DNA from: Tetracentron sinense | Taxonomy: Eukaryota > Streptophyta > Magnoliopsida > Trochodendrales > Trochodendraceae | DNA: 64,000 nucleotides | NCBI GenBank assembly: GCA_015143295.1 | Contig: CM026566.1 | Coordinates: 7,489,072-7,553,071 of the forward strand | Direction of reading: 5' to 3' | Shown here: positions 2,213-64,000 of the stretch, in pieces | Numbering within the stretch: position 1 is the first letter of the stretch | How the letters are laid out: the number at the start of each line of letters is the position of its first letter | The notes under the pieces: generated by a model | Databases searched by the model: none | What the model saw: only the letters and a program-made list of their open reading frames with translations | Told to the model about the DNA's origin: nothing | Made by a program: the position numbers and the translations under genes

Positions 2213-2353
2213 ATGCCGGCAGGTACCGAGGGAGCCCTCGACCCGGAGCCTTGGGTCGAGGAAGAATATATAGAGGAGAGAGAGCCGTCTATCCTACTAC
2301 AGTCTCAGGTGGATCGAGACCTCTACATGTGGCCATACCTCGACTACTGTTGA
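2213..2353 (+). other. Conserved LTR acidic micro-ORF (copy in L2)
   Basis: An uninterrupted frame of 46 codons plus stop starts Met-Pro-Ala-Gly-Thr and contains the core PWVEEEYIEE. It ends near WPYLDYC. It lies ten bases after a stem-loop (GCTGAG, nine-base loop, CTCAGC at 2183-2203). The frame is shared with the other LTR copies listed here. Function unknown; the peptide is strongly acidic, with no signal peptide or membrane segment. Confidence 0.6.
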
Positions 2354-2681
2354 GGGGAGAGTACGAGAGGATCTTTTATGTATTTTGACATTTTGATAGG
2401 TGGGTCTGTCTACCTTAGACTTAGACATGTTTGTATATACGTTAACTTGGAATACTATTTGAGAAATCTTAGAAGAAAAGAAAAAGTTGGTTTGCGCTTC
2501 CGCATTTATGTTTAGCTTCCGCGCTCTGATTTTCATTGTTTTAGTACTTAAATTATCTTGGTCATGACAGGATGGTTTGGCAGGTACGTATAGTCACGCC
2601 TAAAGTATCCCTAAACTCCTAGGGGGTATTTTGGGGCGTTACATATACTTTCTCGCCTGAACTAATCCAAGCTTTGGCTTT

Positions 2682-5600
2682 CTACTGCATGATAGGATCT
2701 CTGATGCCCAGACTATCAAGGATGTTGAAAGCTGAAACACAGTCGTCGTTCATCTGATCAAAATCCTTGAAGTTTCTATTGAGTAGTGAGATCTTCAAAC
2801 CTTCAAGTATGTGCTTAGCACTCTCTGCATAAGCATCGGCCAACAGCTTGGATGGAGGAGGGATGGGAGCATTGTTGGTTACTCCAAAAGTAAATGGTGG
2901 AGCATCAATGATTCGTCTGATAATGCCTACAAAAAAAATTATGAGTTAGCAAATATGAAAATCATTTGGTTAAAAGAAGAGGAGAAGTCAAAGCTATGTA
3001 TTGGGAAGTACAGAGATTCTCCCAAGAAGCGAATCAAAATTATTCCTGTCCACCAACCATCTATCAGATGGAATGCCCCTAGATCCTTGAGGCCCTTTGT
3101 CGGATTTTTTTGGTGGAGGAGTAGAGGGAGTATATTTAGGTGAAGGGGGTCTGACAGGAGATGTCGGGGATTGATCAGCCGAAGGAGTAAATGGTCTATA
3201 TTCAGGTGAGGGGGTCATGGTAAGAAAAGGTAAATCTTCAGAGGTTGACCCTTCAACAGTGAACAACATAGAATAGGGAACTATTTCCATTTTTAATCAC
3301 GTCGGTATCCCGGTCTTCTTCTTGGACATGGAGTTCAGAAATGTTCAACTCAGACTCGTGAGTGGCCTCAATATTGACTCTAGCTTCAGGCACAGTCCCC
3401 ACATCTGACTCAACATCAAGTTTAATGTTGGTCTCAGCTTCAGGTCCTATATCGACCTCGATACCCATCCCAACCTCTGACCTTGTCTCGGCAGTCATTT
3501 CAGCCTCCAGCTTAATTTCAGCCTACAGTTCTTAACTTATCTCTGCCTCAACCCTTTCTTCAGACCCCATATCAACCCTTGTCTTAACTTCAAAGGCAAT
3601 GTTCTCTTGCTCTTGTGGCACTTCAGCTATCACTGACCTTGTAGGCTCAACTGATTTGGTATGTTCTATATTGGGAACTTCATCGACAGGGTTGATACTT
3701 GTTGTGTTCGCTGTCACAGTTCTTGTAAAGCTAGGACCAATCTCAGCTGGTGCAGCCTCGGAAATATCTTTTACTGGTTGGATGAATTCTCCATCGGTCT
3801 TTGAACTAGAGGATTGCCCAATATTAAGAGCATGCTTCTTAGCTTTCCTGATAGCCCGCTGGGCTTAGAGAGAGAGCAGAGCGGCTTCAGTTATTTAAGC
3901 TTTAAAAAATAGATGCACTTTTAGCTCATTGGCTCTACGAGATTCTTCTAGTGCAACCACCAAATGATCTCCATAAAGATTCAGACTCACAGAATCATCT
4001 TGACTATTATCAGCAAATTCATTTGAACTCGATCAAGAGTGGATTGATGATCGTCATGTGCCGGTGAATCAGTTCCATCATCAACATTATTGGTTGGGTC
4101 AGCTACAATGGTCTCACCAAATCCTTCCAAAATACGAGGATGAACAGCTACCCCAACAGTGGTCACAGCCGAATGGTCTTTTGGACGAACAATAAATTTT
4201 ACGGCACCATAAGGTCCTTCCTGTGTTTTCCCAAAATCGCCGGTGTCAGCATTGATGGGTATATCATGTTTGGCCGCAAGGAAGCTATCTTGGCCATCTG
4301 GTTCTCTTCCTCGGTCAGCTCTATTATGGGAGAAGGACTTCTCTGAGCATGCTTGCCTTTCCCCTTAGAAGTTGGTTTGGTTCTTGGACGCTTATGGGTA
4401 GTGGAAGCTATCTTTTGTCTCTTAGCGGGTGCTTTGGCCCTTGACAGTTCTTTCCTTTTCCTAGCACCATGTGCTTGAGTGGGAACGGATGCACCTGCCT
4501 TAGTAGTAGCAGTGGTAATCCTCGCCAAATGTTCTTTCATGATCACGACTGGAATATCACAGCCACCATACTTCAAGTAAGTAGAGGTGCAATTTAACCA
4601 CTATATAGAGAATGTTAGTGAGGGTCGACCTTCCTGCGCTTGAGAGGGAATGAAGAATCTTGATCGAGTATCAACGCACATCAAGTGATTCCACTCTTGT
4701 TTGATCTGATGAAAATCAGTCAAAGTGCAATCAATAATTTCTAAAGTCGGTGGTTTTGCTTGGTCATACCCAAATTGTCGGCCAAATCTGCTCAGGTAGT
4801 AAGGTTCCATGAAGCATTCCTTTCCAAGACGCCACAGCAGCTTAGTTGGACGAAGACTTGTCATCATAAAAAATTCTCTGCTGGAATAGCCCGAACTCAT
4901 GTCATCTACTAAGTAGTCGTTCCCAGCTAGCTCGGAAGCTCCCTTGAAAGGACGAGCCTTGTAAAGACCAAGAGCGGTGCACATGCTTTTAATTGCCTCC
5001 CAGGAGCAATACTTTGCTGGTGTTTGATCGACTATGTAGACCAAGTATGTCAGATTCATCTCAGCTTCAGTAGTTATCTGTCTCGGATAAAAAGAAGGGA
5101 AATATTAACCGATCCAGCCAAATAGGTACTGGAAGGGACCTTGGGCTAATTGGTGACCTGGGTACTTGTTTTGGGCAATGATCCTATCTCTTTGTACAAC
5201 GATGCCATCATTGGGATAAGTAGAGAATGCCTCACACCAGTCGCCATCCGTCTAGCCACCACAAATGTTTTAGGATGGATTACTTCTGCTCTGTGTGAAG
5301 GTAGGACAAAACTGCACAACTAGCAGGATAAGAAGGCAGCCAGATAACCTTCTCTGCTGACTCCGTCACTGGTCTTGATTATCGAATTCCTGATTTCTTA
5401 ATTTGATGGAGTCATGTAAATCGGCTTGGAATACTCATATGGCTCTCTCTTGAAGAAATATTCCAACCATTACCTTAGAGTGACTCTGCTCACTTTACGT
5501 GCCTTCGCACCTTTGCTCAACATTGGTTCTTTAGTTTCTTCTTCAACAGCGGGAGCCTTACCCTTATCAGTAGGAATGGTGGCTCAATCCGCATTTGCTT

Positions 5601-6337
5601 TTAGAAGGGCGTTGTAAACCTTGTACAATTCTTGAGTGCAAGCAGGGATGTTCTCTGAATATAGAACGTTGTTGAAGGGTTGAATTCATCGTAGAAGACT
5701 CCACTGACCAGCAGCCCTGAAATGCGGCTCATCGAATGAATTGAAAATCTGACCTCCTCCCAGGCCATATCAAAATTGTTGATATCGGTGCACCACTGGT
5801 TAAGAAGGCTGCAAAATAGAAAAACATCTTGCTTGTATTCATATTTGGCAAGTCCAACTGTTCCTCGGATGCTAAGAGCTGTCAACTCATCAGTGAAGCG
5901 TACATATACGTCATGAACCCATGACTACCACAAAGTTCTGCCATCGACTGTGGAGCAACTCCTGATGGCCATAGATGCATCCCAGCAAATGCCATCAGTC
6001 TTGGTCAATAGAATAGGAAACAATTCCTTCAATACCCTCTCTGGGTCTTTGCCTGGCGGGTCTATTGCAGCGTGAGAAGGTATCAGATAGCTTCCATCAG
6101 AAACAAATCGGTTGCCTATCAAACCTTTTTTAGCATCATAAATGCATACAGGTATTCTTCCACGAAGTACCCACTCTCTCAGATCTGTAACTGGAAGCGG
6201 CTCAACATCCTCTACCCCAAATGCTCCCATGATCTCCAATTGGCGATCAGACTCGCCCCATTTTTGTCATCTTTGTCAGTGTCGACTTGACAAAGGTTTT
6301 CAGTTCCATGAAAGTATCTCAGTGCTCTAGCCATTCT
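2682..6337 (-). pseudogene. Decayed gene resembling plant-mobile-domain (PMD) proteins
   Basis: Minus-strand coding pieces follow one another. The N-terminal part (about 6337-5601) includes MARALRYFHG at the start, and a stretch WEEVRFSIHSMSRISGLLVSG that recalls the aminotransferase-like plant mobile domain (PF10536) pattern. Next is a region with WEAIKSMCTALGL (about 5059-4601), then a Lys/Arg-rich basic linker (4576-4199). An acidic stretch and a Pro/Ser-rich low-complexity stretch follow (about 3717-2994). Last is a final exon-like piece (2926-2682) preceded by a T-rich tract ending in TTGTAG, ending in Ser-Leu-Gly-Ile-Arg-Asp-Pro. Several breaks show it is dead. It may be a host-derived PMD gene or the antisense extra ORF known from some Tat-lineage gypsy elements, which would fit the plus-strand LTR-like block beside it. 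Family call is from motif memory, not a search. Confidence 0.5.
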
Positions 6338-10902: not shown

Positions 10903-10910
10903 TATAAATA
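10903..10910 (+). promoter_or_regulatory. TATA box of L3
   Basis: TATAAATA in GACCTATAAATAGGATC, about 90 bp after the palindrome cassette. Confidence 0.7.
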
Positions 10911-11459
10911 GGATCTGAATTCGTTGGATTGATCTATTCAAACCCTAAGCTTGGATTTTTGAGAGATTAAAGAAAATAAGAAAAAGAAGAAAATTTTGAT
11001 TTCTCAAAGCGTTCTTCTCAGACCAAAGTGAAGCTCAATCCTTATTTCTAAGGTTTGTACTTTGCTATTTTTAGTGTTTTAGAGCTTAGATTTTCTACCC
11101 AATGTGATTCTCAAATTCTGAAATCAAAAGAGGGGTTTTTGGTTTTGTTTTCCAATTAAGGTTCAGGCTTCTCAAAGCTTCAACCAAGTTTCCTCAAGCT
11201 TGATTCTTGTTCCATAGAAGTGTAAAAGCTTCCTTTTGAGGTAGATACACTCTACGATCTAACCTTGAATATTCTTTAAATAAAACCATATTTTACAGTG
11301 TGTTCTTGGATGAATTGAAATGATGGATTCTCATGGTTTGTAAGCTATCACTATTATTAAATTTCTATAATTATGATTCCATGTTTTTAAGCTTTCCAAG
11401 TATAGTATGATGTTCACAAGCACTATATGCACTCTATGTCTTACATATCTCGTATGATT

Positions 11460-11960: not shown

Positions 11961-12113
11961 TAAGGAAATGGTTTTGGAATTAGTACGGGTTTTCACAGAT
12001 TTCTATACTCCACAGTTCTATGTCTTGCATGCTCCATGATATTATTATTTCACTATTAGCTAGTCGTTTGTATGCGACTGAGTATTCCATGCTCAGCCGA
12101 TTTATTGACTTCG

Positions 12114-12212
12114 GTAGGTGCACGTATTCCTTTCGATGTCTGTGGTTCGGAGCCTTGGATTGAGGAAGAATACTACGAGCTGGAGCCTACCATGGATCAT
12201 TACCAAGACTAG
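12114..12212 (+). other. LTR micro-ORF homologue in L3 (no ATG at the usual place)
   Basis: A 32-codon open frame starts Val-Gly-Ala-Arg and carries PFDVC and PWIEEEY, ending in DHYQD. It follows the stem-loop at the usual distance. The usual start codon is not present in this copy. Confidence 0.5.
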
Positions 12213-12723: not shown

Positions 12724-12855
12724 CTAAAAGGGCCAGTGGTCTAAGTCATTTGCCTCATCCTGAGGCTCTACATATGGCTCCTCCTCGCCATAATCCTCCT
12801 CTATCCAGGGCCCCTGATCACATATGTCAAATGGAGTCCGTGTACCTGCCGACAT
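12724..12855 (-). other. Conserved LTR acidic micro-ORF (copy in L4)
   Basis: An open frame of 43 codons starts ATGTCGGCAGGT (Met-Ser-Ala-Gly) and carries PFDIC and PWIEEDYGEEEP, ending DHWPF. The stem-loop lies at 12866-12886, just upstream on this strand. In this copy the frame also stays open upstream through the stem-loop, but that part is not shared by the other LTRs. I therefore take the Met-Ser start. Confidence 0.62.
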
Positions 12856-14565: not shown

Positions 14566-15616
14566 CTTTTGCAGAAAGCTTCAGCATTTTTGTGTTTTCG
14601 TATCTCGGCCATAACTTTTAACTCGCTTGTCCAATTTTGAAAATTGTAACTTGTGTTGGATTTGTATTTCGAAGGAGAACAACTTTCATGTTTTTCACAA
14701 CTTCCAATTCTTCCTTTTTTTTGGACCATTTTGCCCCTAAACTTGACTGATCCGAAATTGGGTTTCGTCAATCCAGATTTTAAACCGAACCGACTTCAGA
14801 AATCGGTCTTTTGACCTAACACCAACTCAAAACCAAGACAAGTGATCAACATAAACTCCAAAGAGGGTTCAATTACCTTTCTAAAAATCTAAGAATCGCT
14901 TGATTCCGTCGAGCAGTGTGAACGCTAGGGCTATTTAGAGTCGAGGGTATGCCAAGGCATAACCCTTGTCAATACTCAAGAGTATTCTATACTCTTGCCT
15001 ATTTCATTCCAAACACCCATACAGCATAAATACATTCTTAAATGCTTTAGTATATGATATCATTCGTCGTACATGGCCATCAAGATCCGGGGTTCTACAA
15101 TATGTATGCCTTATGTATCATACAGGATGTATGATACGGCGACCACGAGCTAAAGTATCCCTAACTCCTAGGGGTATTTTGGGTCACGACACATGTTCCC
15201 TTCTTATTTCTTTTCTTGATTTTTGTTTTTTATCTTGGATAATATTAGAACCAATCTTTATGAAAGGATCTTACATTCAAGAAATGATCTTGCATTCAAG
15301 AAAAGAATAAAAGATAATTGAGTTTGAATGGAAGTGATTGATCAAGAAAGGTTTTTAAATCAAAGATAAGAAGAAAAGATTAAAGAGCATTGATTGGAAG
15401 GGCCATTAGCTTCCATTAGAGTAAAGCTTTGGAGATTTAAAGAAGGTTCGTGTGAATCGACAGGAGACTGTACGCTTGAGAAGTTTTATAAGTATGTTTC
15501 CTCGCACCATGATTTAATATGATCATAGGATGACCCTTGGGAAGATTTTGATTAGATCAAAATCAAGTTTAAATTAAAAATAGTGCTTCGAAAAATTTTA
15601 TATTCATGTCTTTTAG

Positions 15617-18356: not shown

Positions 18357-18636
18357 TGTCACGCCCCAAAATACCCCCTAGGAGTTAAGGGATACTTTAG
18401 AGGTGACTACGTGTACCTGTCAAACCATCCTGTAATGCAAGAGGCTAAACATAATATAATACAATGATAATCAGAGCGCGGAAACTAAACATAAGTGCGG
18501 AAGCATAAGCCAACTTTTTCTTTTCTTCTATAACTCCAAATAGTATTCCAAGTTAACATATACCAAATACAATCAAAGTAAAGGTGGACATGCCCACCTA
18601 TCAAAATACAAAAAGGAACTCTCTAACCCTCTCCTC

Positions 18637-18777
18637 TCAACAGTAGTCGAGGTATGGCCACACATCCAAGTCCCCATCCTCCTGAGACTGCCATGGGATA
18701 GGTGGCTCCCTCTCCTCTACATACTCCTCCTCGACCCAAGGCTCGGGGTCGAGGACATCCGCGGTACCTGCCGACAT
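18637..18777 (-). other. Conserved LTR acidic micro-ORF (copy in L5)
   Basis: 46 codons, Met-Ser-Ala-Gly-Thr start, core DPEPWVEEEYVEE, end WPYLDYC. Compared with the D copy many codon differences are silent (for example GAG/GAA in the Glu run). Confidence 0.62.
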
Positions 18778-19052
18778 AAAAGTACGGCTGAGCATGGAAT
18801 ACTCAGCGAGTACAAACTACTAGCTAACCATAACAATAACGAAAGCATAACAACAGTGAGCAATACAAGATATTAATTTAAAGCAATAGTGAGAGCATAA
18901 GATACATAGCCATATCTTGACATGCGTATATGAATGCAAAAACCTCGGTAAAACTCATGTCTCGGAAACCTTTTTCGTGTCTCAGTCAAATCATGTATGT
19001 GTATCGTGTCTTGTCTTGTATTTCATGTCTTGATTTGTTCTTGACTTGTATA

Positions 19053-19604
19053 CTTGTGAGCCAGAGGCTAGCACCCTTCCTTGGGCTACCAACCTCCTTG
19101 TCATGTTCTTGTTCCATTTCTCTTGTGAGCCAGAGGCTAGCACCCTTCCTTGGGCTACCAACCTCCTTGTCATGTTCTTGTTCCATTTCACTTGTGAGCC
19201 AGAGGCTAGCACCCTTCCTTGGGCTACCAACCTCCTTGTCATGTTCTTGTTCCATTTCTCTTGTGAGCCAGAGGCTAGCACCCTTCCTTGGGCTACCAAC
19301 CTCCTTGTCATGTTCTTGTTCCATTTCACTTGTGAGCCAGAGGCTAGCACCCTTCCTTGGGCTACCAACCTCCTTGTCATGTTCTTGTTCCATTTCTCTT
19401 GTGAGCCAGAGGCTAGCACCCTTCCTTGGGCTACCAACCTCCTTGTCATGTTCTTGATGCATTTCACTTGTGAGCCAGAGGCTAGCACCCTTCCTTGGGC
19501 TACCAACCTCCTTGTCATGTTCTTGATTCATTTCACTTGTGAGCCAGAGGCTAGCACCCTTCCTTGGGCTACCAACCTCCTTGTCATGTTCTTGATTCAT
19601 CATA
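19053..19604. repeat. Minisatellite of eight 69-bp units in L5
   Basis: Units start every 69 bp (19053, 19122 and so on) with CTTGTGAGCCAGAGGCTAGC and differ at very few positions, mostly in the ATTTCTC/ATTTCAC junction. Because 69 is a multiple of three, long open frames appear on both strands (up to 230 codons). They are repeat artefacts. Confidence 0.96.
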
Positions 19605-20562
19605 TACAAATACAATCTTGGGAAACCCGGTTTCATGCATGCATGTGTACTCGTGTGCGTGCCAATAGTGACAATCATGGGGACACGTGTAACAAGAGGG
19701 ATATCGCATCATATTTCAATTCATAGTATAGCATGTAAGCATTTAGGTGATCAACATGGCATTTGGTCAAGTCATCATTTGCAAGAATAATTACATAAAG
19801 CTTACATCCATTTCCTTTATCAATTTCATTTATTCTTGGTTTAGGCATATTATCAAACATCCAGTGTGCAACATTTTAGTAGTTTTATTTCCCCTTTTTA
19901 GCGCATAAATTTCCAACACAACATCCAAGTATGTTCATTATTCATAGAGTGCCCTTCCACCGTTTTCCATACCCACATTTCACCACGTCCAACGGCATCC
20001 AATCGCCTCTACATCCACCATTCATACATACAACCCCACATTCACATTTATCTTGTTTAGGTTTAGGAAGTATAGCACATTTCAAGTAAGGGAAGATACA
20101 AGACCAACATCATAATGTCAAAGGGGAAAAACTAGATTATTGCTAAAGAAAGTTAGTAGAGTGTACTAACCTTAGATCAAGGTTTGATCTTGAAGAAACC
20201 TTGAAATAGAAGCTCTATTTGGAAGGAGGAAGCCTTTGCTTGAAGGGGACTTGAGTTAGGGAAGAAACCCCTTTCAAAAACGTGAGTGAGTGCTGCCCTA
20301 GCTTGGAGAATGCACCTCCACCCGAGCTTGAGTTGAAGTCTTGAAGAAAACGTGCTTGGGGACGATCTAGGGTCTTCACCCCTTTGATTTCTTCTCCAAA
20401 AGCAACCTAGGTTTAGGAAACCCTTTTCTCCTCTCTCTTATCTCCCAAATCTCTCTAAGTATAGTGAATGATGCCCTAAGGCTCGGGCAAGCCTTAAGGA
20501 GAAAGGGTTTAACCCCCAAAAGACGATAAAGCCCTTACTGAAATTTATGCAAAAACGCGAAG

Positions 20563-20745
20563 ACCGAGCGATCGGTGGTTATGACCGATCGATCGGTTGC
20601 CTACCGAGCGATCGGTGTTTATGACCGCTCGATCGGTCAAAAACTCACTCTCTAGAAAATTTCCCCATACAAAATTTCTGACCGTGCGATAGCTACCGAT
20701 CGATCGGTTATGGACCGATCGATCGCTGACTGGACCGAGCGATCG
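20563..20745. repeat. Palindrome cassette of L5 (ACCGATCGATCGGT)
   Basis: Some eight copies of ACCGAGCGATCGGT / ACCGATCGATCGGT lie between the promoter module and the gene-side leader of this minus-strand LTR. Closely similar to the cassettes at 53578-53770 and 61197-61385. Confidence 0.9.
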
Positions 20746-20959
20746 GTGCTCTGTATATCTGGACTGTTTTGACCATATCTTTTCACTCGCTCGTCGGATT
20801 TCGATGATTCAACTTGCGTTGGGTTCGTCTTTCGAAAACGCACATTTCTGACATTTTGGAATTTCCAATTTCTCCCTTATTTATTAATTAGACTACGAAA
20901 ACGGCCAATTAGCTATGAAAGTGCCATTCATTAAAGATGAAAAAGTCTGGGGTGCTACA

Positions 20960-24951: not shown

Positions 24952-24959
24952 TATAAATA
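24952..24959 (+). promoter_or_regulatory. TATA box of element A
   Basis: TATAAATA in GGGCTTATAAATAGAAAGCC, also present in the 3' LTR near 40038. Confidence 0.75.
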
Positions 24960-26580: not shown

Positions 26581-26649
26581 ATTTTGCCTTGGAACCGACT
26601 CCTTGAGATATTTAGGGGGTGTAATGGTCTTTGGCCTCACCCCTTGGCC

Positions 26650-26657
26650 TATATAAA
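26650..26657 (+). promoter_or_regulatory. TATA box of L6
   Basis: TATATAAA in GGCCTATATAAACCAC, downstream of the palindrome cassette. Confidence 0.65.
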
Positions 26658-39985: not shown

Positions 39986-40879
39986 CGAAAATCTGTTCTT
40001 AAAAACACGCAAGAATAAGGGTTTCAACCCTTGGGCTTATAAATAGAAAGCCATTTGGGGTTTTTGGCTCACCATAAACCTAGAGGAGAGAAAGAGGAGA
40101 GGAAGAAAGAGAGAAAAAGGAGAGGAGAGATTGAGAAATCCAAAGAGGGGTTTTTGGATTTGAAGATCAAGGGAGCTCAAGGAAGATCTTCCTCCTCAAG
40201 GATTGCTCCTCCATCAAGTTGGGATCTCAATCAAAGGTTTTTCTTCAAGATCAAGCTTTGATCTTCAAGGTTAGTACACCCTCCTAACTAACTTGGTAAT
40301 AACCTAGATATTCCTTAAAGAATGCTTATGGATCGATCTTAGATACTTTATTTTCTTGAAATGTTTAAATTTCCCAATAAACAAGATAAAATAATTTTGA
40401 TGGATGTGTGTAAGGGATGATTAGTTGAGGCGATTGGATGCCATGTAGGACGTGATTGTTGTTGTGGTGTGATGGAAAAATGGGAAGGGCAATGTACTCA
40501 TAATGAATACACTCCATGTGCTTGATGAAATGTTGAACTTGAAAAACATGAATAAAATGCTAAAGGGATGTTGCATGCCAAGTGTTTGATGGAATGCTTG
40601 TATGAAATTAGAACCAAGACTATGCCATATGAATTAGGGACTTTTCCCCAACTAATTGGTAATCATGCTAATATGCTTTACATGTCCCTCAACTCTCACA
40701 TGTTTCTGGGAATCTTGAAAATGTTATATGATGCTTAATTTCATGTCACATGATGTTGCCTATTGATTATACACGAGTGCTAAGAATCGAAATAACAAGT
40801 AAAACTCATCAAGAATAATACACAAGAACTCGTAAGAACTTACAAGAAATGCTCACAAGAAATGTTCACAAGAAATGGA

Positions 40880-41190: not shown

Positions 41191-41915
41191 AGGAAGGGCT
41201 CATAAGAATCACATAAGGACTCACAAGAACTCATAAGAATTCACATGAACTCATAAGGACTAACAAGAACTCATAAGGATTCACACAAACTCACAAGAAC
41301 TCACAAGGCTTCTAAGGACTCATAAGAATTTCATAAATGCACAAGAACTCATATGATTTGTATGTTGCTTTAAGAATGAATCATGAACTGTATTCTTTAA
41401 TTAACTGTTATGATAGCATGTATACTTGTTATTACGGTTGTTAGCTTGGAGCCTGTACTCGCTGAGTATTCCATACTCAGTCGTACTTTCATATTGGCAG
41501 GTACACAAGTCCCTTTTGACATTTGAACTCCGGGTCTTTAGATAGAGGAGGACTATGGCGAGGAGGAGCCATATATGGAGCCGGCGGTGGAGCCTCAGGT
41601 GGAGGCAAAAAACTTAGACCATTGGCCCCATGGGGGTGACTATTGAGAGAGAGAGTTATATTTCTTTTATGTTTTGATAGGTGGGCATGTCCACCTTTAC
41701 TTGCTGTATTTTGTTTATAAAAACTTGGAATACTTGTTAGGTATATAGAAAAGAAAAAGTTGGTTGCGTTTCCGCAATACTTTAGCTTCCGCGCTCTGTG
41801 TTATATCCCTATTAGATCATGTTATGTCTTATTCATTACATGATGGTTTTCCAATTTGAGTACAGTCAGACCTATAGTATCCCTTAACTCCTAGGGGGTA
41901 TTTTGGGGTGCGACA

Positions 41916-49203: not shown

Positions 49204-49344
49204 TCAACAGTAGTCGAGGTATGGCCACACGTCAAGGTCTCGGTCCGCCTGAGACTGCAGTGGGATAGACGGCTCTCTCTCCTCTATATATTCTTCCTCG
49301 ACCCAAGGCTCCGGGTCGAGGGCTCCCTCGGTACCTGCCGACAT
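49204..49344 (-). other. Conserved LTR acidic micro-ORF (copy in D 3' LTR)
   Basis: 46 codons, Met-Ser-Ala-Gly-Thr, DPEPWVEEEYIEE, end WPYLDYC. Confidence 0.62.
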
Positions 49345-49890: not shown

Positions 49891-51029
49891 CATGCAATAT
49901 TTTCTTGTTGGTTGTTATATGCACATGCTCTTGAAATCTCGGTTCATGCTATCATGCGTGCTCGTGTACGTGTCAATCGTGACAACCATGGAATAAGGGT
50001 AATAAGAGAGGTATGACATCACCATTCAATTCACAATATAAGCATATGAGAAATTGAGTTATCAACATGGTATTTAAATCCATTCATCATTCATGAGAAT
50101 ACATGCATAAGGCCCCTTTCCATTTCTTCATTTAAATCATTATTTCATAGTTTAGGTATTTTGTCAAACACTTAGCATGCACGTTTCCTCATTGTTCATT
50201 TTCTCCTTTTTAATGCATATTTTACATTCAATCACACAAGGTAAGTTTATTATTTGTGTAATGCCCATCCTCCATTTTCCAATCCACGGCCCACACATAC
50301 CATACATCACCCATTCGGCATCCAATCGCCACATCCAACATCCATCCAAACATCCATACCATTTCTTTATCTTGTTTATATTTATTAGGGATGATACATT
50401 TCACAAGAAAGTAAACATAATTGCCTAAATCACATTTCATAAAGAAAACTTAGATTTATTGCTAGGGTAAGTTAGTAGGGTGTACTAACCTTGAATCAAG
50501 GCTTGATCCTTGGTAGAAACCTTGATTGAAGCTCCAACTTGCAAGAAGAAAGATCCTTGCTTGAAGAAAGCTTGAGTTGAGGAAGAAACCCCTTGGAAAA
50601 ACTTGTGTGAGTTGCTGCCCTAACTTTGGAGGAGGAGTCCCACACGAGTTGAACCTTGAACTTGAAGCAATCCAAGTTGAGGATGATCTAGGGTTCTTAA
50701 ACCCCTTTGATTCCTTCTCAAAATCAAAACCCTAGGTTAGAGTCTGTAACGCCCCGAAATACCCCGTAGGAGTTTAGGGATATTTTAGGTGTCACACTAC
50801 GTACCTATCAAACTATCCTATAATGCACAAGATAAAATACAGTACTAACAACGATAATCAGAGCGCGGAAGCTAACATATATGCGGAACCATAAACAAAT
50901 TTTCATTTCTTCTAATGATCCAAAATGTAGTATTCCAAGTTAATCATAAGTACAAAACACGTCTAAGTCTAACGTGGACAGGCCCACCTATCAAAATATC
51001 AAAATACATAAGACCCAACACTATCTCGC

Positions 51030-51185
51030 TCAATAGTCACCCCCGTGGGGCCAATGGTCTAAGTCTCTCGCCTCCGCCTGAGGCTCGACTACTAGATCCT
51101 CATACGGTTCTTCCTCCCCGTAGTCCTCCTCTATCCAAGGACCCTGATCACAGATGTCAAGAGGGGCTCGTACACCTGCCGACAT
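51030..51185 (-). other. Conserved LTR acidic micro-ORF (copy in L9)
   Basis: 51 codons, Met-Ser-Ala-Gly-Val, PLDIC, GPWIEEDYGEEEP, end HWPHGGDY. Its C-terminal half matches the A copy rather than D. Confidence 0.62.
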
Positions 51186-51865: not shown

Positions 51866-52839
51866 TTATTATATGCACATGCTCTTGAAATCTTGGTTCA
51901 TGCTATCATGCGTGCTCATGTGCGTGCCAATAATAACAATCGTGGGAATGCGTTTAACAAAAGAGATATGGCATTACAATTCAATTCATAATATTAGCAG
52001 AGGTAACTTAAGTAATTCACATGACATTGGATCAATTCATCGTCTATAAGAACACATGCATAAAACCTATTTCCATTTTCTTCGTCTAAGTCGTTTATTC
52101 ATAGTTTAGGCATTTTGTCAAACACAACACATGCAATGTTTCTTAATAATTCATCTTGTTCTTTTTAGCGCATATTTTCCATCCAAACATCAAGGTAAGT
52201 TCATTATTGGTAAAATACACATCCACCATTTCCATCACACACATCACACAACATACATCTCGGCATCCAATCGCCACATCCAACATTTCCATCCACACAT
52301 CCACACCTTTTCCATTATCTTGTTTATATTTAATGGGGGATAACACATTTCATAAGGAGGAAAACATAATATAAAAAATCACATTTTTATATAGAAAACC
52401 TAGATTTTTGCTAGGGAAAGTTAGTAGGGTGTACTAACCTTAGATCAAGGCTCGATCCTTGGTAGAAACCTTGATTGAAGCTCCAACTTGAAAGAAGAAC
52501 ACCTTTGCTTGAAGGAGACTTGAGTTGGGGAAGAAACCCCTTTCAAAAACGTGCTTGGGTTGCTGCCCTAGCTTGGAGAACGCTCTCCACGAGTGCTTGA
52601 GCCGTGATCTTGGAGAAAAACCGGACTTGAAGTGATCTAGGGTCTCAAAACCCCTTTGATTCTTCTCCAAAAGCAAAACCCTAGCTTAGGAAACCCTTTC
52701 TCCTCTCTTCTAATCCCCCAAATCCTCTAAGTGTTGAGAATGAGCCCTAAAGGCTCGGGTTAAACTCTTAAGGTAAGAGTGAACCGATCAAAAGACCATA
52801 ATACCCTTACTGAAATTTCTGCAAAAACACGAGTGCCGA

Positions 52840-53225: not shown

Positions 53226-53577
53226 TGTAGGTCCAGACTGTTTTGGCCATATCTTTTGACTCGTTCGTCTGATTTTGACGATTCAACTTGCATTGGGTTC
53301 GTCTTTCGAAAATGCACATTTCTAACGTTTTAGAATTTCCAATTTCGCTCTTATTTATTAATTAGACTATGAGGAAGGCCAAGTAGCTACGAAAACGGTA
53401 TTCATTAAGTATAAAAAAAATCCGGGGTGCTACAGAGTCTCTTCTCCTCTCTCCCTAACTCTCAAAAGCTTCTAAGTGTTGTAAATAATCTCTAAGGCTC
53501 AGGCCTAGCCTTATAAGAAGAAAGGGTTTAACGCCCAAAAGACGAAAATGCCCTTACAAAATTTTCTGCAAAACACT

Positions 53578-56405: not shown

Positions 56406-59400
56406 ATGAGGCGGGGCACACGGGGTCGTGGACCACACACCCGAGCTTCATCTTCTTCCAGAGATGAGGATGAACAGCTGGACCTCTCTCAGGTCTTAGG
56501 CTCTATTGCTGAGACACTCGCCATACTGGCGGCTCGGCAAGCTATACCATCGTCGGCGGCACCTACTCCACCGCCCGCAGCTCCAGTACATCGTACAGCT
56601 GGAGTTGAGGCATTCAGGAGATTGAGGCCTCCACCATTCCATGGGAGTGTGGACCCTCTTGCTGCGGAGGCATGGATCCTCCAGATGGAGAAGATCTTTG
56701 CGGTCCTCTCGCCTACAGAGGAGGATAGAGTAGCATGGGCAGTTTTCATGCTAGAGAGCGAAGCCCACCATTGGTGGTTGTCCGCATTGAGGATGCAAGA
56801 TTTGACCATGCAGGGTCAACCTTGCACTTGGGAGGAGTTCAAGGACACTTTTTATAAGAAGTACTTTCCGATCGGAGCACGGGAAAGGAAAGAGAGAAAA
56901 TTCATCAACCTTGAGCAAGGTTCGATGTCAGTAGCACAATATGAAGCTAAGTTCTCGGAGCTCTCTAGATTTGCGCCTCACATGGTGGCTACTGAGGCAA
57001 GGAAGGCGAGGAGATTTGAGCAAGGGCTCAAGGATGTTATTATGGAGATTAAGTATCGGCTTTCAGGCACTGTACTTATCTGGAAGTGGTAGACAAAGCC
57101 TTATTGATCGAGGCAAATTCTGAGGTGGTGTCCAAGAAGAGGGAGTTGGCAAGAGGCCAAGCCAGTAGTTCAGCACCTCTAGAGAGGCGGGCTCATACCG
57201 GCCCTTATCAGTATGTGTGGCCAGCACCACCGATGAGGCCATCTTATCCACCTCCAGCTCCACGGCAGTATGTGCCTCAGGTACCGTGACCTCAGGCTCT
57301 TCCAGCTCCACGGCTAGTTACACCTCAGACGGTGAGGTATGCTCCACCTCCGGCCCCTCCGACCTATACACACGAGGTCTGCACTTCGTGCGGCCGAAGG
57401 CACTCGGCAGGAGATTGCCGAAGGGCATCGGGTGGATGTTTTCATTGTGGTCGCCAGAGCCATATGATCAGGGATTGCCCCAGTCGGCATTTGCCAGGCC
57501 AGTCTCAGGGGATTAGGCCCCCAGCATGCCCAGCAGGATCATATCAGGCGTCATCCCAGACTACCCGGTCTACACCTCAGTCTCGCCAGGCAAACCAGGG
57601 GCGAGTTTTTGCCTTAATAGAGGGTGATGCACTTGCATCTGACGATGTAGTGCAAGGTACGCAGTTGTAGCTTATTTAATTACCCGTAAATTAAATTATT
57701 ATGTATTATTCTTTGTGTACGTATATGGCATGTTATATATATAAATACCTATATGTATACATTGTTGATGCATGGATTGACTTAGCTAGCTAAAATTTCA
57801 GGAACCCTACTAGTCAATGAGTGTTTGGCTCGAGTATTGATTGATACCGGGTCTACTCATTCGTTTGTCTCGCCGAGTTTTTCAGAAGGCTTTTCTGTGG
57901 AGCCTACTCAGCTAGAACCGGAGTTATCCATTTTGACTCCTCTCGGCAAAACAGTATTGGCAGATAAAGTGTATAGAAATAGCGTGGTCCAAGTTGGAAG
58001 CCACGAGTTGGCGGTTGATCTCATCGTCCTTGGATTCCAAGACTTTGATGTTATATTGGGAATGGATTGGTTAGCAGCACATCATGGGCATGTAGCTTGC
58101 TTTGAGAAGATGGTACTCTTCAAGCCGGTAGAAGGAAAACCATTTCACTTTCGGGGGTTAAAAAGTAGAGATATCGCTCGTTTTACGGCATTGAGCTTAG
58201 CGAACCTCGAGGCAAAGGACTCTTCGACTATTCCGGTCGTGAGTAAATTCCTAGATGTATTTCCAGAGGAGTTGCGAGGATTGCCTCCAGACAGGGAGAT
58301 TGAGTTTGTGATCGAGCTTGCACCAGGCACAGCTCCTATTTTCAGGGCTCCGTATAGAATGGCCCCTATTGAACTCAAAGAGTTGAAGACTCAGTTGGAG
58401 GAATTACAAGGCCTTGGTTTCATTCGACCAAGTGTCTCACCGTGGGGTGCCCTGATGTTATTTGTTAAGAAGAAGGATGGCTCGATGCGGATGTACGTTG
58501 ACTATCGGCAACTGAACAAAGTCACTATAAAGAATAGGTATCCATTGCCTAGAATTGATGATTTGTTCGATCAGTTGAAGGGAGCGAGATTTTTCTCAAA
58601 GATAGACCTTCGATCGGGTTATCACCAGTTGAAGATTAAGGTGGAAGATATTCCCAAAACTGCTTTCAGGACTCGGTATGGACACTACGAGTTCTTGGTG
58701 ATGCCTTTTGGACTCATGAACGCGCCGGCAGCCTTTATGGATTTGATGAACCGGGTGTTCCGGCCATATCTTGATAGATGCGTGATTGTATTTGTTGATG
58801 ACATTTTGGTCTATTCCCAGACACGGGAAGATCACACACGCGACCTACGCCTTGCTTTGGAAATACTAAGAGAGCACAAGCTATACGCCAAACTTAGCAA
58901 GTGTGAGTTTTGGTTGGAAGAGGTGGCATTCCTAGGCCACGTTGTTTCTGCAGAAAGTATCTCGGTAGATCCAAAGAAGATCGAAGCAGTTATGAGTTGG
59001 GTGAGGCCCAAGAGTGTTGCCGAGATATGCAGCTTTCTTGGGTTGGCAGGCTACTACAGGAGATTCGTAGAGGGTTTCTCTAGCCTTGCAGCACCGCTCA
59101 CTTACCTGACAAGGAAGAACGCCAAGTTTGTATGGAGTGATAAGTGCGAGATCAGTTTCACGAAACTGAAGAAGAGGCTTACTACAACCCCTGTCCTTAC
59201 TGTGCCATCTGGACCTTATGGGTATGAGGTATATAGTGATGCCTCACACGTTGGACTTGGGTGTGTACTCATGCAGCACAAGAAAGTCATTGCCTATGCA
59301 TCAAGGCAATTGAAGGAGCATGAGAAGAATTATCCCACGCACGACTTGGAGCTTGCGGTGGTCGTGTTTGAACTTAAGATTTGGCACCATTACCTTTATG

Positions 59401-60883
59401 GGGTGGAGTTCTATGTGTTTACCGATCACAAGAGTCTCAAGTATCTCTTTTCCCAAAAGGAGCTGAATCTAAGGCAACGGCATTGGATGGAATTTTTGAA
59501 AGACTATGATTGTACCATTCAATACCACCCGGGTAAAGCAAATGTAGTGGCTGATGCTTTGAGTAGAAGACCTCCGGGGTTATTAGCATGCATGTCAGTG
59601 CAAGAATGGGAGCTACTTGAAGACTTGGAAAATTTGGACATTAGTGTGAATGACTCTGTCCGTAGTCCTATCTTGGCAAATGTCACGGTTCGGCCATACA
59701 TTATAGATTTGATCCAAGAATACCAAGCCACGGATGCTGAATTGTTGGCTTATCGGGACAAGGAAGGTCCTAAGGGTAGTGAGGACTTCTCTCTCACTAG
59801 CCAAGGTGCTATCACATTCAAGGGAAGGCTGTGTGTCCCAGCCAATGCAGATCTTCGGACGGAGATTATGGATGAAGCCCACCGGTCAAAGTACACTGTG
59901 CATCCAGGGGGTACGAAGATGTACCGGAACCTCAAGAGTCACTTTTGGTGGCGGAATATGAAGAGAGATGTTGCAGAATATGTGGCACGGTGCTTAGTGT
60001 GCCAACAGGTGAAAGCAGAACACATGCGACCCGCCGGTCCAAGATTCACGTCAAGATTTTGGAAAAGTTTCCAAGAGGCTATGGGTTCCCGACTTGATTT
60101 CAGCACCGCTTTTCATCCACAGACGGATGGACAAACCGAGAGAGTGAACCAAGTCATTGAAGACATGCTTCGGGCTTGTATGTTGGATTCAGAGGCAGTT
60201 GGGAAGAGCACTTGCCTTTGGTTGAATTCGCCTATAATAACAGCTATCAGGCAAGTATCCATATGGCACCATTTGAGGCCTTGTATGGGCGAAGTTGTAG
60301 GTCTCCTCTCTATTGGGATGAGGTAGGAGAAAGGAAAGTACTTGGTCCGGAGTTGATTGAGCAAACTGCAAACACAGTTAAGATCATTCGGGATCGATTG
60401 AAAGCCGCTCAAGATCGCCAGAAAAGTTATGCGGACACGCGCCGTAGGGACTTGGAATTTTAAGTAGGGGATCAAGTTTTTATGAAAGTATCTCCTAGCA
60501 AAGGGATCATGAGATTTGGCAAGCGAGGCAAGCTCAGTCCTCGGTATGTTGGGCCTTTTGAGATTATCACGCGAGTTGGTGAGGTTGCTTACAGGGTAGC
60601 TCTCCCACCTCACATGGCCGCAGTTCACAACGTTTTCCATGTGTCTATGCTTCGGAAGTACATTGCTGATCCTTCGCATGTCATAGACTTGGAACCGTTG
60701 GAGATTCGAGAGGACCTCACCTTGATTGAAAGGCCGGTTCAGATTTTGGATCGAAGAGATCAAGTGCTTCGCAACAAGACAATCCCTTTGGTTCTTGTGC
60801 AATGGCAACACCATGCTCGGGAAGAAGCTACATGGGAGCGTGAAGCCGAAGTCAAAGCGAAGTACCTAGAATTATTTGAATGA
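56406..60883 (+). mobile_element. Gag-pol fossil of element E
   Basis: Gag (GVEAFRRLRPPPFHGSVDPL; WEEFKDTFYKKYFP; EARKARRFEQGLK) is followed by two zinc-knuckle motifs (CTSCGRRHSAGDC, CFHCGRQSHMIRDC). Then protease ([13 protein letters not shown]), RT ([29 protein letters not shown]), RNase H ([14 protein letters not shown]), integrase zinc finger ([29 protein letters not shown]), part of the integrase core, and a chromodomain-like tail (EEATWEREAEVKAKYLELF). Gag and the protease frame are separated by an AT-rich interval of about 150 bp. The longest open stretch (57825-60326, 833 codons) shows it decayed recently. About four breaks overall. Confidence 0.92.
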
Positions 60884-60984: not shown

Positions 60985-61196
60985 TGTAGAGCCCCGGACC
61001 TTTTCACATTTAATGCATGACACTTTTGTTGCCATTTTGCCTTTAAAGAGGTATAATTAATAAATAAGGAAGAAATTGGAAATTTCGAAATGTTAGAAAT
61101 GTTTGTTTTCAAAGTACGAACCCAACGCAAGTTGAATCGTCAAAATCGGACGAACGAGTAAAAAGTTATGGCCAAAACAGTCTGGACCTACAGGCA

Positions 61197-61385
61197 ACCG
61201 ATCGCTCGGTCCATAGAGCGATCGATCGGTCCAAAACCGATCGATCGGTAGCTATCGACTGGTCAAGATTTTTGTATGGGGGAATTTTCCAGAGAGTTGA
61301 TTTTTGGTCGAGAGCTCGGTCAACACACCGATCGCTCGGTAGGCAACCGATCGATCGGTCATTAACACCGATCGCTCGGTCCTCG
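61197..61385. repeat. Palindrome cassette of the E 3' LTR (ACCGATCGATCGGT)
   Basis: About seven ACCGATCGATCGGT / ACCGATCGCTCGGT words between the AAAGTTATGGCC module and the TATA-like box. Confidence 0.9.
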
Positions 61386-62284
61386 CGATTTGCAGAATTT
61401 TCACTAAGGGCATTTTCGACATTCGGGTGTTATACCCTTTCTTATATAGGATCGCCCGAGCCTTTAGGGCTCATTCTCAACACTTAGAAGATTTGGGGGA
61501 TTAGAAGAGAGGAGAAAGGGTTTCCTAAGCTAGGGTTTTGCTTTTGGAGAAGAATCAAAGGGGTTTTGAGACCCTAGATCACTTCAAGTCCGGCTTTTCT
61601 CCAAGATCACGGCTCAAGCACCCGTGGAGAGCGTTCCCCAAGCTAGGACAGCACCTCACGGTCGTTTTTGGAAGGGGTTTCTTCCTCATTTCTTCAAGGT
61701 CGGTACTTCTTGCTACCCTCCTAGCTATAGCTCCTCTTTTCCTTTATTTCTCTTTGTTTCCTTCCTTTGTACATGTGCTATGAGTTTGGAAGTGTGAACG
61801 TGGTGAATGGAGATGGAATAGGCGATTGGATGCCAATGGTTGTGTTGTGATGATTGAAATAGGGGAGGGCATTGTATCCATAATAAACACACATTTATGA
61901 TGTGAGTAAACTCACCTAGAAAAGCATGATTTAGGTTTAAATAAATAATGAATAATGAACACACCATGTTTGATGAAATGCCAAGGTGAATAAAGTGAGT
62001 TGTAAATTAGGAATTGCATGCCTAATAAATTATGGATATTGCTAGGGCCTATGATAGTGTGTTTTCTTGCTTTCCCTAAATGATGTGAATATTACATTGC
62101 TCAATCATTGATGTTATATGTGTTGTGAATTACCCAAATGTCATATTTAAATTTAAATGCAAGTATGTACACGATTCCCACGAGCACGGCATGCATGACA
62201 TGATTTACCGAGGTTTTCAGGAACATGGTTAGAGGTGGGACATATCCTACAATATGTTTTACCTCATTTTTCACAAGAAAACAA

Positions 62285-62475
62285 GAACCAACATTCCACG
62301 AGGGGCCTCCCCTCACTCACAAGTGCATATCATGAAGAAGGGCCTCCCTTCCCTCGCAAGTACATACATATCATGAAGAAGGGTCTCCCTTCCCTCTCAA
62401 GTGCATTGCATAAAGAAGGGTCTCCCTTCCCTCTCAAGGCATCTCTCAAGTGCATCTCACAAGGATATCTCACAA
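62285..62475. repeat. Minisatellite of the E 3' LTR (AAGGGTCTCCCTTCCC)
   Basis: Four units as in L7, one with GGGCCTCCC. Confidence 0.88.
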
Positions 62476-62803
62476 GTTACATGATCACAAGCAAGCACGC
62501 ATGACATGCATGACATGACACGTACGACACGCTCGACAAGATCAAGCAAGACAAACACGACAAGCTTTCAAGTACGAAAAGATATTTCAAGCCAAGTCAA
62601 GTGCACGATGTTTTCAAGAGGTTTTATCGGCTTTCTACGAAATACAAGCATGATTATAATTTGCTTTACTTCCTTGTATGATATGAATTGTTTCCGTCTA
62701 ACATATATGAATTGCACCTGATTTATGTATTGCCATTTTTATGCTATGACTATTGGTTAGTATTTGGTACCCGCTGAGTATTCCATGCTCAGCCATACTT
62801 CTA

Positions 62804-62923
62804 ATGTCGGTAGGTTCTGAGGGAGCTGCTGCTCCATTTGATGTCTGTGCTCCGAGCCCTTGGGGGGAGGAGGAGTACGTCGAGGAACCCTTGGAGGAAC
62901 CTCCAGTAGAGGGTTATCAGTAG
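62804..62923 (+). other. Conserved LTR acidic micro-ORF (copy in E 3' LTR)
   Basis: 39 codons, Met-Ser-Val-Gly-Ser, PFDVC, PWGEEEYVEEP, end VEGYQ. Same length as L7. Confidence 0.6.
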
Positions 62924-63224
62924 GTGGTGTATAGATTCTGAGTGGATTAGCTGTGGGTGAGCATGAGTGATTATATCTATGTATTTTGGCGGGCATGTCC
63001 GCACTTTCTTTGTTTTGAATTCTTTGTATTAAAACTTGGACCATGTGTATATACTTAGAGGTTGTTAGACTTCTGCTGTGTTTTATAGTTATGTTTCCGC
63101 TGTCATCCTCTATTGTATATGCTCTGTGGGTTTTTGCAGGTTGGTTTGTCAAGCAAGTCATGTAAGCCATGATTAGTCGTCCAAAGTTCACTCTAACAAC
63201 TAGGGTGGGTTTTGGGTCGTGACA

Positions 63225-63416
63225 ATACAACACAACATCATCCATACAATCCATGTTCCTAGCGTAGGACTCTAAGTTTGGTTGAGATTTAACCTATTTC
63301 GACTAGGACTAACTTGATAGTCCATACTTGGAATACAACTAATGCCTTGTTCAATCATGGTCTCTAGTACTACGCGACCCTAGGGACTCTAATGCCTAGA
63401 GCTCTGATACCACTTC
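63225..63416 (-). mobile_element. Leader and primer-binding site of element D
   Basis: On the minus strand TGGTATCAGAGC (63401-63412) follows the 5' LTR, then a leader that matches the A leader (30035-30161 and 32712 on, for example AGAGTCCTACGCTAGGAACA). Confidence 0.88.
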
Positions 63417-64000
63417 TGTAACGCTCCAAAATACCCCCTAGGATTTTAGGGATACTTTAGGCGTGACTATACGTACCTGCCAAACCATCCTGTCATGAAC
63501 AAGATAATTAACGTACTAAACAATGATAATCAGAGCGCGGAAGCGAAACATAAATGCGGAAGCGTAAACTAACTTTTTCTTTTCTTCTAAGATTTCCAAA
63601 ATAGTATTCCAAGTTAACATATATACAAAACATGTTTAAGTCTAAGGTGGACAGACCCACCTATCAAAAAGTCAAAATACATAAAAGACCCTCTCGTACT
63701 CTCCCCTCAACAGTAGTCGAGGTATAGCCACACGTCAAGGTCTCGGTCAGCCTGAGACTGCAGTGGGATAGACGGCTCTCTCTCCTCTATATATTCTTCC
63801 TCGACCCAAGGCTCCGAGTCGAGGGCTCCCTCGGTACCTGCCGACATGAAAGTACGGCTGAGCATGGAATACTCAGCGAGTACAAGCTACTAACCATCCA
63901 TAACAATAATAAACATGCAAAGAGTAGTACAATACCAATCATCAATTCCAGGCAATAATAAAATCATAGAACTAAACAATATTAATCATCTTGATGAGCA
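63417..64000 (-). mobile_element. 5' LTR of element D (3' part only, cut by window end)
   Basis: TGTAACGCTCCAAAATACCC at the left; closely matches 48942-49520. Contains the micro-ORF and stem-loop. The rest lies beyond the window. Confidence 0.92.
63707..63847 (-). other. Conserved LTR acidic micro-ORF (copy in D 5' LTR)
   Basis: 46 codons, Met-Ser-Ala-Gly-Thr, PWVEEEYIEE, end WPYLDYC, almost as in the 3' LTR. Confidence 0.62.

Follow-up and report, generated by a model that had tools for sequence, protein, structure and literature searches.

Selection on a short reading frame inside the long terminal repeats of probable Tekay-type retrotransposons of Tetracentron sinense

A short open reading frame (micro-ORF) of 28–51 codons was found inside the long terminal repeats (LTRs) of chromovirus retrotransposons in Tetracentron sinense, and its amino acids were almost certainly selected. 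The analysis covered a stretch of 64,000 nt (assembly GCA_015143295.1, contig CM026566.1, positions 7,489,072–7,553,071 of the forward strand), hereafter the window. The dN/dS ratio (omega) of the micro-ORF was 0.13–0.38 over sets of copies and codons, each rejecting 1, and nothing comparable was found in the flanking LTR in any of the three frames; neither of the two outcomes that the first-pass annotation had named as refuting therefore occurred. The reading that we favour, at a probability of roughly 0.45, is that the micro-ORF would lie in the second exon of a spliced leader and encode an accessory microprotein acting in trans.

Copies of the micro-ORF and selection on its amino acids

Each of the 13 LTR 3' ends of this lineage in the window was paired with one hairpin block and one micro-ORF (Table 1). 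Searched with up to 5 mismatches, the end motif gave 14 matches, of which 13 were LTR ends and one, at 7794, was not. The copies are named by the first base of the frame and were grouped by sequence into families F1 (2213, 18777, 49344, 63847), F2 (12855, 29597, 41491, 51185), F3 (32299, 62804), F4 (12108) and F5 (28561, 38969). Both F1 and F2 are broadly drawn, and support was low for most of the deep joins of the LTR tree; in the tree made without the ORF columns, the branches to F3, F4 and F5 were 0.98, 1.22 and 1.35 substitutions per site. The copies 29597 and 41497 belong to the two LTRs of one F2a element, so that the 13 copies are not all independent insertions.

The first-pass annotation had placed the 13 frames at the same relative position in the LTR, and all 13 were found, on the strands that it implied, to translate as it described. 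Twelve were open to their stop, the exception being 41497–41646 with two internal stops, and nine started with ATG, followed by Ser (eight) or Pro (one) and then by Ala-Gly or Val-Gly. The core it gave as PW(I/V)EE(E/D)Y was strictly present in nine of 13, the other forms being PWGEEEY (62804), PGVEEEY (28567), LGVEELY (38975) and, with a stop at the second residue, L-stop-IEEDY (41497). The spacing from the invariant AGGT to the PW core was 8, 9, 11, 11 or 14 codons by family and in the same frame in all. The raw gap counts were uninformative (gap events that were multiples of 3 in the raw nucleotide alignment: 5/13 in the ORF, 15/63 downstream, 4/22 upstream). A peptide profile of 28 columns, run on the six-frame translation of the window, recovered the 13 copies at E ≤7.5e-11, followed by a next match at E = 2.1; as the profile was built from the 13 copies themselves, what it adds is that the window holds no 14th copy.

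The motif PW[IV]EE[ED]Y-x-E was kept in F1–F4 and [FL]D[IV]C in F2–F4. The peptide was acidic, with an isoelectric point of 4.05 in 10 of the 12 uninterrupted copies, and was modelled as disordered, the structure model (mean predicted local distance difference test score, pLDDT, 62; predicted template modelling score, pTM, 0.14) reporting no secondary structure. The core was kept while the ends varied between families, as would be the case for a linear-motif peptide.

Codon models of Goldman-Yang (GY) and Muse-Gaut (MG) type were fitted to protein-guided alignments on a fixed nucleotide tree and tested against omega = 1, the statistic being twice the log-likelihood difference (2dlnL). For codons 5–28 (24 codons) of all 13 copies omega was 0.25, with 2dlnL of 31.6 (GY) and 33.7 (MG). 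The value fell to 0.157 when each lineage was represented by a single copy (8 sequences; 2dlnL 41.4, p ~1e-10) and to 0.127 when F5 was left out of that set (2dlnL 45.7), and it was 0.213 for all copies except F4 and F5 (n = 10; 2dlnL 25.5). In F1/F2, the tail that follows the core, which is independent sequence, gave 0.242 (2dlnL 20.1, p 7e-6), the whole ORF of F1/F2 gave 0.284 (2dlnL 30.6) and the four F2 copies alone gave 0.330 (2dlnL 12.4).

A control was made on a nucleotide alignment that was not protein-guided, for which the aligned LTR 3' region was divided into 16 windows, each of 54 gap-free columns and read in three frames. The two in-ORF, in-frame windows reached 27.3 and 25.4, and the other 46 of the 48 window-frames stayed at or below 4.9. 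When this control was applied to the first 1000 bases of the LTR, the highest value was 9.5 for seven LTRs (96 window-frames) and 15.2 for four LTRs (138 window-frames), the latter from a window that contains stops. The ORF frame had a z of 5.0 in the core and the five other frames, antisense included, had −0.7 to 1.6. The third codon position was the most variable in 10/10 between-family comparisons, and its share of the differences, 0.45 in 54 gap-free columns, was equalled by 20 of 5000 shuffles. A BLOSUM column-shuffle score, which we take as supporting only, reached z 5.6 in ORF windows and 3.7 among 249 windows outside, with an overall mean of 0.95 because conserved columns cluster. The analysis shows the amino-acid selection between families and the sequence anatomy described below. 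A second coding piece near the LTR start was considered and rejected: its best value (2dlnL 15.2, omega 0.125) came from a window of 20 codons in four sequences that holds two stops, in a scan of 234 window-frames on both strands where single high values can occur.

Sequence anatomy of the LTR around the micro-ORF

A block like CTGAGTATTCCATGCTCAG, 22 bases long (GTTAGCTAGTAG..CTGAGTATTCCATGCTCAGCC) and conserved in its nucleotides, preceded each of the 13 micro-ORFs. Its distance to the frame was 7, 8 or 9 bases and was not kept modulo 3, which argues that coding starts at or after the invariant [CT]AG/GT (the slash marks a predicted splice junction). The third bases of codons 3–4, within which this motif lies, were identical in 13/13 copies and that of codon 2 nearly so; since codons 3–4 are frozen at silent sites too, an RNA or DNA signal appears to overlap the start of the ORF. 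The [CT]AG/GT was the best acceptor-like AG of ~630 bases in nine of the 13 copies and the second best in four, as scored with a generic plant acceptor matrix. Downstream of the ORF, a dyad was present 33–80 bases past the stop in nine of 13 copies, as found by a simple best-hairpin search with no shuffle control. Its arms changed in pairs between families (GGTGG/CCACC, AGTGG/CCACT, GCGG/CCGC); it was damaged in 29597 and 51185, and an unrelated dyad stood in its place in F5. Rfam gave no match in the window at the gathering score.

Upstream of the ORF, a clear TATA box was found in five of the 12 copies with a donor-like site (both F2a, F4, the F3 3' LTR and one F5), 150–260 bases before the donor and 414–460 bases (F2a, F3) or 852 bases (F5) from the LTR start. 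The predicted donor was AAG/GTTAGT, exactly or with one or two bases changed, in F1, F2a, F2b, F3 and F4, with another AAAG/GT at a like place in F5 and F2c. Mismatches to TCTAAG/GTTAGTA numbered 0 in F1a, F1b and F2b, 1 in F4, 2 in the second F1a copy and the F2a 3' LTR, and 3 in the F2a 5' LTR. We consider these donors homologous because of their position and the similarity of their flanks, which were, for example, 82% alike over 76 bases between F1b and F2a. When ATGs were counted along the five complete LTRs, an ATG-poor stretch gave way to a very ATG-rich one, with the donor-like motif at the border. From the TATA box, or its place, to the donor no ATG was present in 10 of 11 copies, and there were 3 in all versus 15.3 expected from dinucleotide shuffles (minimum 8 in 200). 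This count omits two F1a copies, of which one is shortened by an insertion and the other runs off the end of the window; for copies in which the start was not fixed by a TATA, a length of 250–335 bases was taken (60 in F2c). The remainder, from donor to ORF, contained 593 ATGs versus 391 expected.

The simplest reading of this layout is a transcription start, an ATG-free exon, an intron and an exon with the micro-ORF. That the micro-ORF lies in the transcribed leader is likely, and our confidence in this placement was lowered slightly because a clear TATA was present only in five of 12 copies. A further acceptor-like site of the CAG/G(A/T)TG type was conserved in most copies ~70–85 bases before the LTR 3' ends and would splice the ORF out.

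Table 1. Positions of the micro-ORFs and of other features in the window
Feature	Position	Strand	Remarks
Micro-ORF, F1a	2213..2353	+	ATG, 46 aa
Micro-ORF, F4	12108..12212	+	codon 1 ACT, no ATG; 34 aa
Micro-ORF, F2c	12724..12855	-	ATG, 43 aa; solo LTR
Micro-ORF, F1b	18637..18777	-	ATG, 46 aa; solo LTR
Micro-ORF, F5	28561..28647	+	codon 1 TCT; core Trp to Gly; 28 aa; solo LTR
Micro-ORF, F2a	29597..29749	+	5' LTR; ATG, 50 aa
Micro-ORF, F3	32299..32418	+	ATG, 39 aa; solo LTR
Micro-ORF, F5	38969..39058	+	codon 1 TCT; core Trp to Gly; 29 aa
Micro-ORF, F2a	41491..41646	+	3' LTR, same element as 29597; codon 1 ATA; two internal stops, decayed
Micro-ORF, F1a	49204..49344	-	ATG, 46 aa
Micro-ORF, F2b	51030..51185	-	3' LTR, polypurine tract just before LTR; ATG, 51 aa
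Micro-ORF, F3	62804..62923	+	3' LTR; ATG, 39 aa
Micro-ORF, F1a	63707..63847	-	5' LTR, then primer binding site; ATG, 46 aa
Conserved block like CTGAGTATTCCATGCTCAGCCG (example)	29568..29589	+	one ahead of each of 13 ORFs; invariant [CT]AG/GT at most 20 bases on
Dyad AGGTGGG CATG TCCACCT (example)	41676..41699	+	3' of ORF; pairing kept with changed bases in other families
TATA box TATAAATAG, F2a 3' LTR	40038..40046	+	
TATA box TATAAATAG, F2a 5' LTR	24952..24960	+	
TATA box TATAAATAG, F4 LTR	10903..10911	+	
TATA-like TTATATAGG, F3 3' LTR	61442..61450	+	
TATA box CCTATATAAACC, one F5 LTR	26648..26659	+	
TATA-like CTTATAAGG, F2b LTR	53509..53517	-	outer of two promoter-like copies, ~1.1 kb before donor
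Predicted 5' splice site, F1a	1082..1083	+	CTAAG/GTTAGT; last exon base 1082
Predicted 5' splice site, F1b	20170..20171	-	CTAAG/GTTAGT
Predicted 5' splice site, F2b	52438..52439	-	CTAAG/GTTAGT
Predicted 5' splice site, F1a	50489..50490	-	TCAAG/GTTAGT
Predicted 5' splice site, F2a 3' LTR	40269..40270	+	TCAAG/GTTAGT
Predicted 5' splice site, F2a 5' LTR	25192..25193	+	TCAAG/GTTGGT
Predicted 5' splice site, F4	11052..11053	+	CTAAG/GTTTGT
Predicted 5' splice site, F3 3' LTR	61698..61699	+	TCAAG/GTCGGT
Predicted 5' splice site, F3 solo LTR	31181..31182	+	TCAAG/GTCGGT
Predicted 5' splice site, F5	26871..26872	+	GAAAG/GTAGAA
Predicted 5' splice site, second F5 copy	37437..37438	+	AAAAG/GTAGAA
Predicted 5' splice site, F2c	14876..14877	-	GAAAG/GTAATT
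3' LTR of F3 element	60985..63224	+	2240 bases; polypurine tract GTAAGGAGGGGAGGA just upstream
F1b solo LTR	18357..20959	-	2603 bases; target duplication CAACC
F3 solo LTR	30162-32711	+	target duplication TTGAA
F5 solo LTR	25797-28954	+	target duplication CAAGA
F2c solo LTR	12441-15099	-	target duplication ATATG
F3 pol, two open pieces	57786..60880	+	protease, RT, RNase H, integrase zinc-binding domain; SH3-like and weak chromodomain at 60464-60880

Roles considered for the micro-ORF

On the favoured reading, transcription would start from a promoter in the first part of the LTR, and a nearly ATG-free first exon would be spliced at AAG/GTTAGT to an acceptor at the micro-ORF or shortly ahead of it. 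The micro-ORF would be the peptide-coding segment of the second leader exon, translated from the spliced RNA; the start site, the splicing and the translation are all predicted from sequence. The acidic peptide would work in trans as an accessory microprotein of the element through its kept motifs, perhaps by binding a host protein, and this role in trans is a conjecture. A solo LTR would carry the whole unit, since promoter, exon, intron and ORF would all be in one LTR. With the acceptor CTCAG/CCG, the ATG of the micro-ORF would be the first in the spliced RNA in eight of the nine copies having it and the second in 12855. This acceptor and GCAG/GT could both be used, by which the peptide would be switched on and off. 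It is possible, if doubtful, that the LTR is a complete gene, with promoter, untranslated exon, intron, microprotein exon and 3' end, maintained by selection across families with LTRs that otherwise align poorly. If so, the choice between two neighbouring acceptors would toggle the start codon, and every solo LTR would be a potential source of a microprotein selected in the element.

Several observations weigh against this account. The start codon is absent from F4 (one copy) and F5 (two copies), its context is poor (T or C at −3 in 12/13, G at +4 never), and a further ATG lies 18–19 bases upstream in 9/13 copies, out of frame in four. The strongest acceptor-like site, GCAG/GT, would start the exon 10 bases past the A of the ATG and cut the ATG off, and splicing to it would put TAA directly ahead of the frame in four of the 12 donor copies (donors at 1082, 20171, 52439, 11052). 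No clear TATA was found in F1, the inner F2b copy, the F3 solo LTR or the second F5 copy, and F2c contained only CTAAATAG as a TATA-like sequence. The donor search at up to 3 mismatches also yields many unrelated places. Each putative intron holds 21–90 ATGs, with which an unspliced RNA could hardly be scanned to the micro-ORF. When codons 1–4 were included, omega rose to 0.38 (2dlnL 16.9, GY) or 0.37 (18.8, MG). Within families pN/pS was 0.48 (F1a), 0.53 (the F2a LTR pair, one copy of which gained two stops) and 0.71 (F5), with no clear constraint after insertion; the F3 pair gave 0.19, and all within-family values rest on few changes. F5, without the core Trp, was the least constrained family (pN/pS 0.49). 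We take this to mean that purifying selection acted in source elements while the families diverged and that inserted copies decay. Of the protein of ~39–51 residues proposed in the first-pass annotation, the selection on amino acids is strongly supported and the stand-alone, ATG-started product is a supposition; the sizes here are 28–51 codons.

An unlikely reading, though one to be taken seriously, is that of a leader peptide acting in cis, that is, a conserved-peptide upstream ORF (CPuORF) on the genomic RNA that acts only while being made, translation of the ORF or its splicing in or out setting the number of ribosomes that reach gag. The stop of the ORF lies ~260–310 bases upstream of the LTR end, ahead of the primer site and gag, as this reading expects; the amino-acid selection is as in CPuORFs (definition in an excerpt of PMC5902531), the dyad past the stop keeps its pairing through the family changes, and the second acceptor-like site TTACAG/GATGG beyond the ORF could skip the ORF. 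However, the C-terminus varies in length and sequence between families and the start context is poor. Arrest peptides usually need a fixed C-terminus. It is distinctly less likely that the micro-ORF is an exon of a larger protein, with coding from GCAG/GT, the ATG intronic and an upstream coding exon (e.g., gag) gaining an acidic tail. The presence of [CT]AG/GT in 13/13 copies versus ATG in nine, the unkept modulo 3 spacing from block to frame and the freezing of codons 3–4 at silent sites all fit such an exon. A coding splice from exon 1 at GCAG/GT was nevertheless rejected, exon 1 being without ATG in 10/11 copies and having the in-frame TAA in 4/12. Donors in pol were rejected as well, none being conserved: four of at least 7 bits were found in the F3 internal region, but none with GT and the needed phase in F2 pol, a check that covered pol, the F2 gag lying outside the window.

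Improbable, in our view, is an accessory ORF of the U3 type, with the promoter after the ORF and the 3' LTR alone expressing it, through splicing or an inner promoter, as for Sag of mouse mammary tumour virus (MMTV) or lentiviral Nef. A TATA-like TATATAAAAACTTGG or TTTATAAAAACTTGG does lie ~220 bases past the ORF start in both F2a LTRs, and weaker forms occur in two F1 copies and F3. Across the 13 LTR 3' ends, no TATA position aligns better than a TATA-like stretch 80 columns past the ORF, which also counts against the favoured reading. In F4, F2b, F2c and two F1 copies (18777, 49344), however, this stretch is poorly matched or missing, the F5 variant lies elsewhere, and the stretch may be a poly(A) signal; the combination of upstream TATA, ATG-free stretch and donor is stronger, and a promoter downstream of the ORF was dropped as first choice on these grounds. 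The least probable reading is that no peptide is made and that the block is conserved as DNA or RNA only. The 22-base block, the silent sites of codons 3–4 and the dyad after the ORF are indeed conserved as nucleotides, but changes in the core are concentrated at third positions in the ORF frame only and the codon tests contradict it; conservation at the nucleotide level alone was ruled out by the codon models and window controls. An extension of pol or of the chromodomain was also rejected, as F3 pol stops at 60880, the LTR begins at 60985 and the ORF at 62804, a continuity judged on the one F3 element having pol and 3' LTR together.

Elements of the window, related systems and significance

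The LTRs of these families began with 5' TGTAG and ended with ACA 3', and the five complete ones (2240, 2323, 2550, 2603 and 3232 bases) fall inside the range of 1.1–4.8 kb given for Tekay/Del in an excerpt of PMC4029996. The F3 element contained the Ty3/gypsy order PROT-RT-RH-INT (protease, reverse transcriptase, RNase H, integrase) in Pfam matches at 57786–60323, followed by the SH3-like integrase tail and a Chromo match (PF00385; E 4.5e-5, 23.7 bits) under the curated cut-off of 25.1. From LTR length, polypurine tract and the weak chromodomain, the lineage is likely Tekay/Del. The first-pass annotation had called pol broken everywhere, which needs some qualification, as the frame at 57786–60323 is open for 846 codons. 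Between F2 and F3, pN/pS of pol was 0.08–0.20 (4 pol pieces compared), which marks them as families whose pol was under selection. Two LTRs, those ending at 30023(+) and 63412(-), are followed by the primer binding site TGGTATCAGAGC, which we take to match the initiator Met tRNA; these are two of its 8 matches in the window when up to 2 mismatches are allowed, and it was not found after the other 11 LTR ends, which are solo, 3' or interrupted. The F2a element is traceable over 24539–41915 (duplication AACAT), with other LTRs nested inside, and the F4 LTR is split by the F2c solo LTR, so that the LTR end at 15191 is that of F4.

Other features of these LTRs were also observed. The F1b LTR contained 69-base tandem repeats at 18914–19738, within the predicted intron, in nine registered copies that were 62–100% alike, and similar units align in other F1 and F2 LTRs. 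The F2b LTR (50745–53976) showed a second LTR-start sequence TGTAGCACCCC at 53434 and a second promoter-like region ~540 bases in, from which its first part appears to be duplicated or nested. A block CCAACGCAAGTTGAATCGTCGAAATCGGACGAGCGAGTCAAAAGATATGG was present in the first 220 bases of the LTRs at 60985(+), 30162(+), 20959(-) and 53976(-); F1b, F2b and F3 share it in conserved form, and a recognisable version is present in F5. Repeats like CGATCGATCGGT were clustered at LTR positions ~200–400 (e.g., 61190–61380), upstream of the TATA region, in F1b, F2b and F3. A 422-codon open frame at 43840–45105 (+) with copia-type gag and pre-integrase domains belongs to a different superfamily.

MMTV Sag and lentiviral Nef are LTR-encoded accessory proteins that are large and lie in U3; the micro-ORF resembles them in being a putative accessory frame in an LTR, but it is of microprotein size and most likely in R. 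CPuORFs are, to our knowledge, known from host mRNAs. They share with the micro-ORF a short frame with selected amino acids, whereas here the ORF is in an LTR, the C-terminus is variable and any effect on gag is hypothetical; set beside CPuORFs, the micro-ORF has omega of 0.13–0.38, a leader position predicted from sequence and its own ATG in nine of 13 copies. The aORF and eORF of plant LTR elements are likewise extra coding segments beyond gag-pol, but those described in excerpts of PMC4093653 have hundreds of codons and are placed in the interval from the LTR to gag or in that from pol to the 3' LTR; here there are 28–51 codons inside the LTR. In the centromeric retrotransposons of CRM group A, of another chromovirus clade, coding sequence is also present inside the LTR, where a coding region runs into the 3' LTR and encodes the CR motif (PMC3059260), whereas here pol ends ~100 bases before the LTR and the ORF lies 1.8–2.8 kb inside it. 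Retrosat2 of rice, of the Del/Tekay clade (PMC6317226), has a long LTR for which a promoter near the 5' end and a 2-kb R region were proposed in silico (PMC3485330); its extra ORF0 is placed after the 5' LTR and ahead of the main ORF (PMC4093653), and the excerpted descriptions report no LTR ORF (PMC3485330, PMC4093653). The review PMC7264820 contained none of the terms in or within the LTR, Tekay, chromovir-, overlap or Retrosat, and excerpts of PMC3601003, PMC11656987 and PMC5838962 did not settle the LTR anatomy. Among the open-access matches listed, none showed a microprotein encoded in the LTR, whether of Tekay or of other plant elements. Homologue searches, which covered Pfam (0 matches for five micro-ORFs), solved structures (0 relatives of the peptide), viral contigs (0 by pattern; the profile confirmed 0/4 pattern matches) and prokaryote genomes (0 by pattern), and not plant genomes, gave zeros that say little.

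The LTRs of plant retrotransposons are usually regarded as regulatory, fast-evolving and non-coding. A selected microprotein frame inside an LTR would amount to an unrecognised gene, carried by solo LTRs too and possibly in very many copies per genome, and it would offer a handle on the dealings of Tekay-type elements with their host or on the regulation of gag. It would also be a reason to re-examine small peptides mapping to LTR elements; in grape, 47 non-conventional peptides map to LTR retrotransposon regions (PMC9070638).

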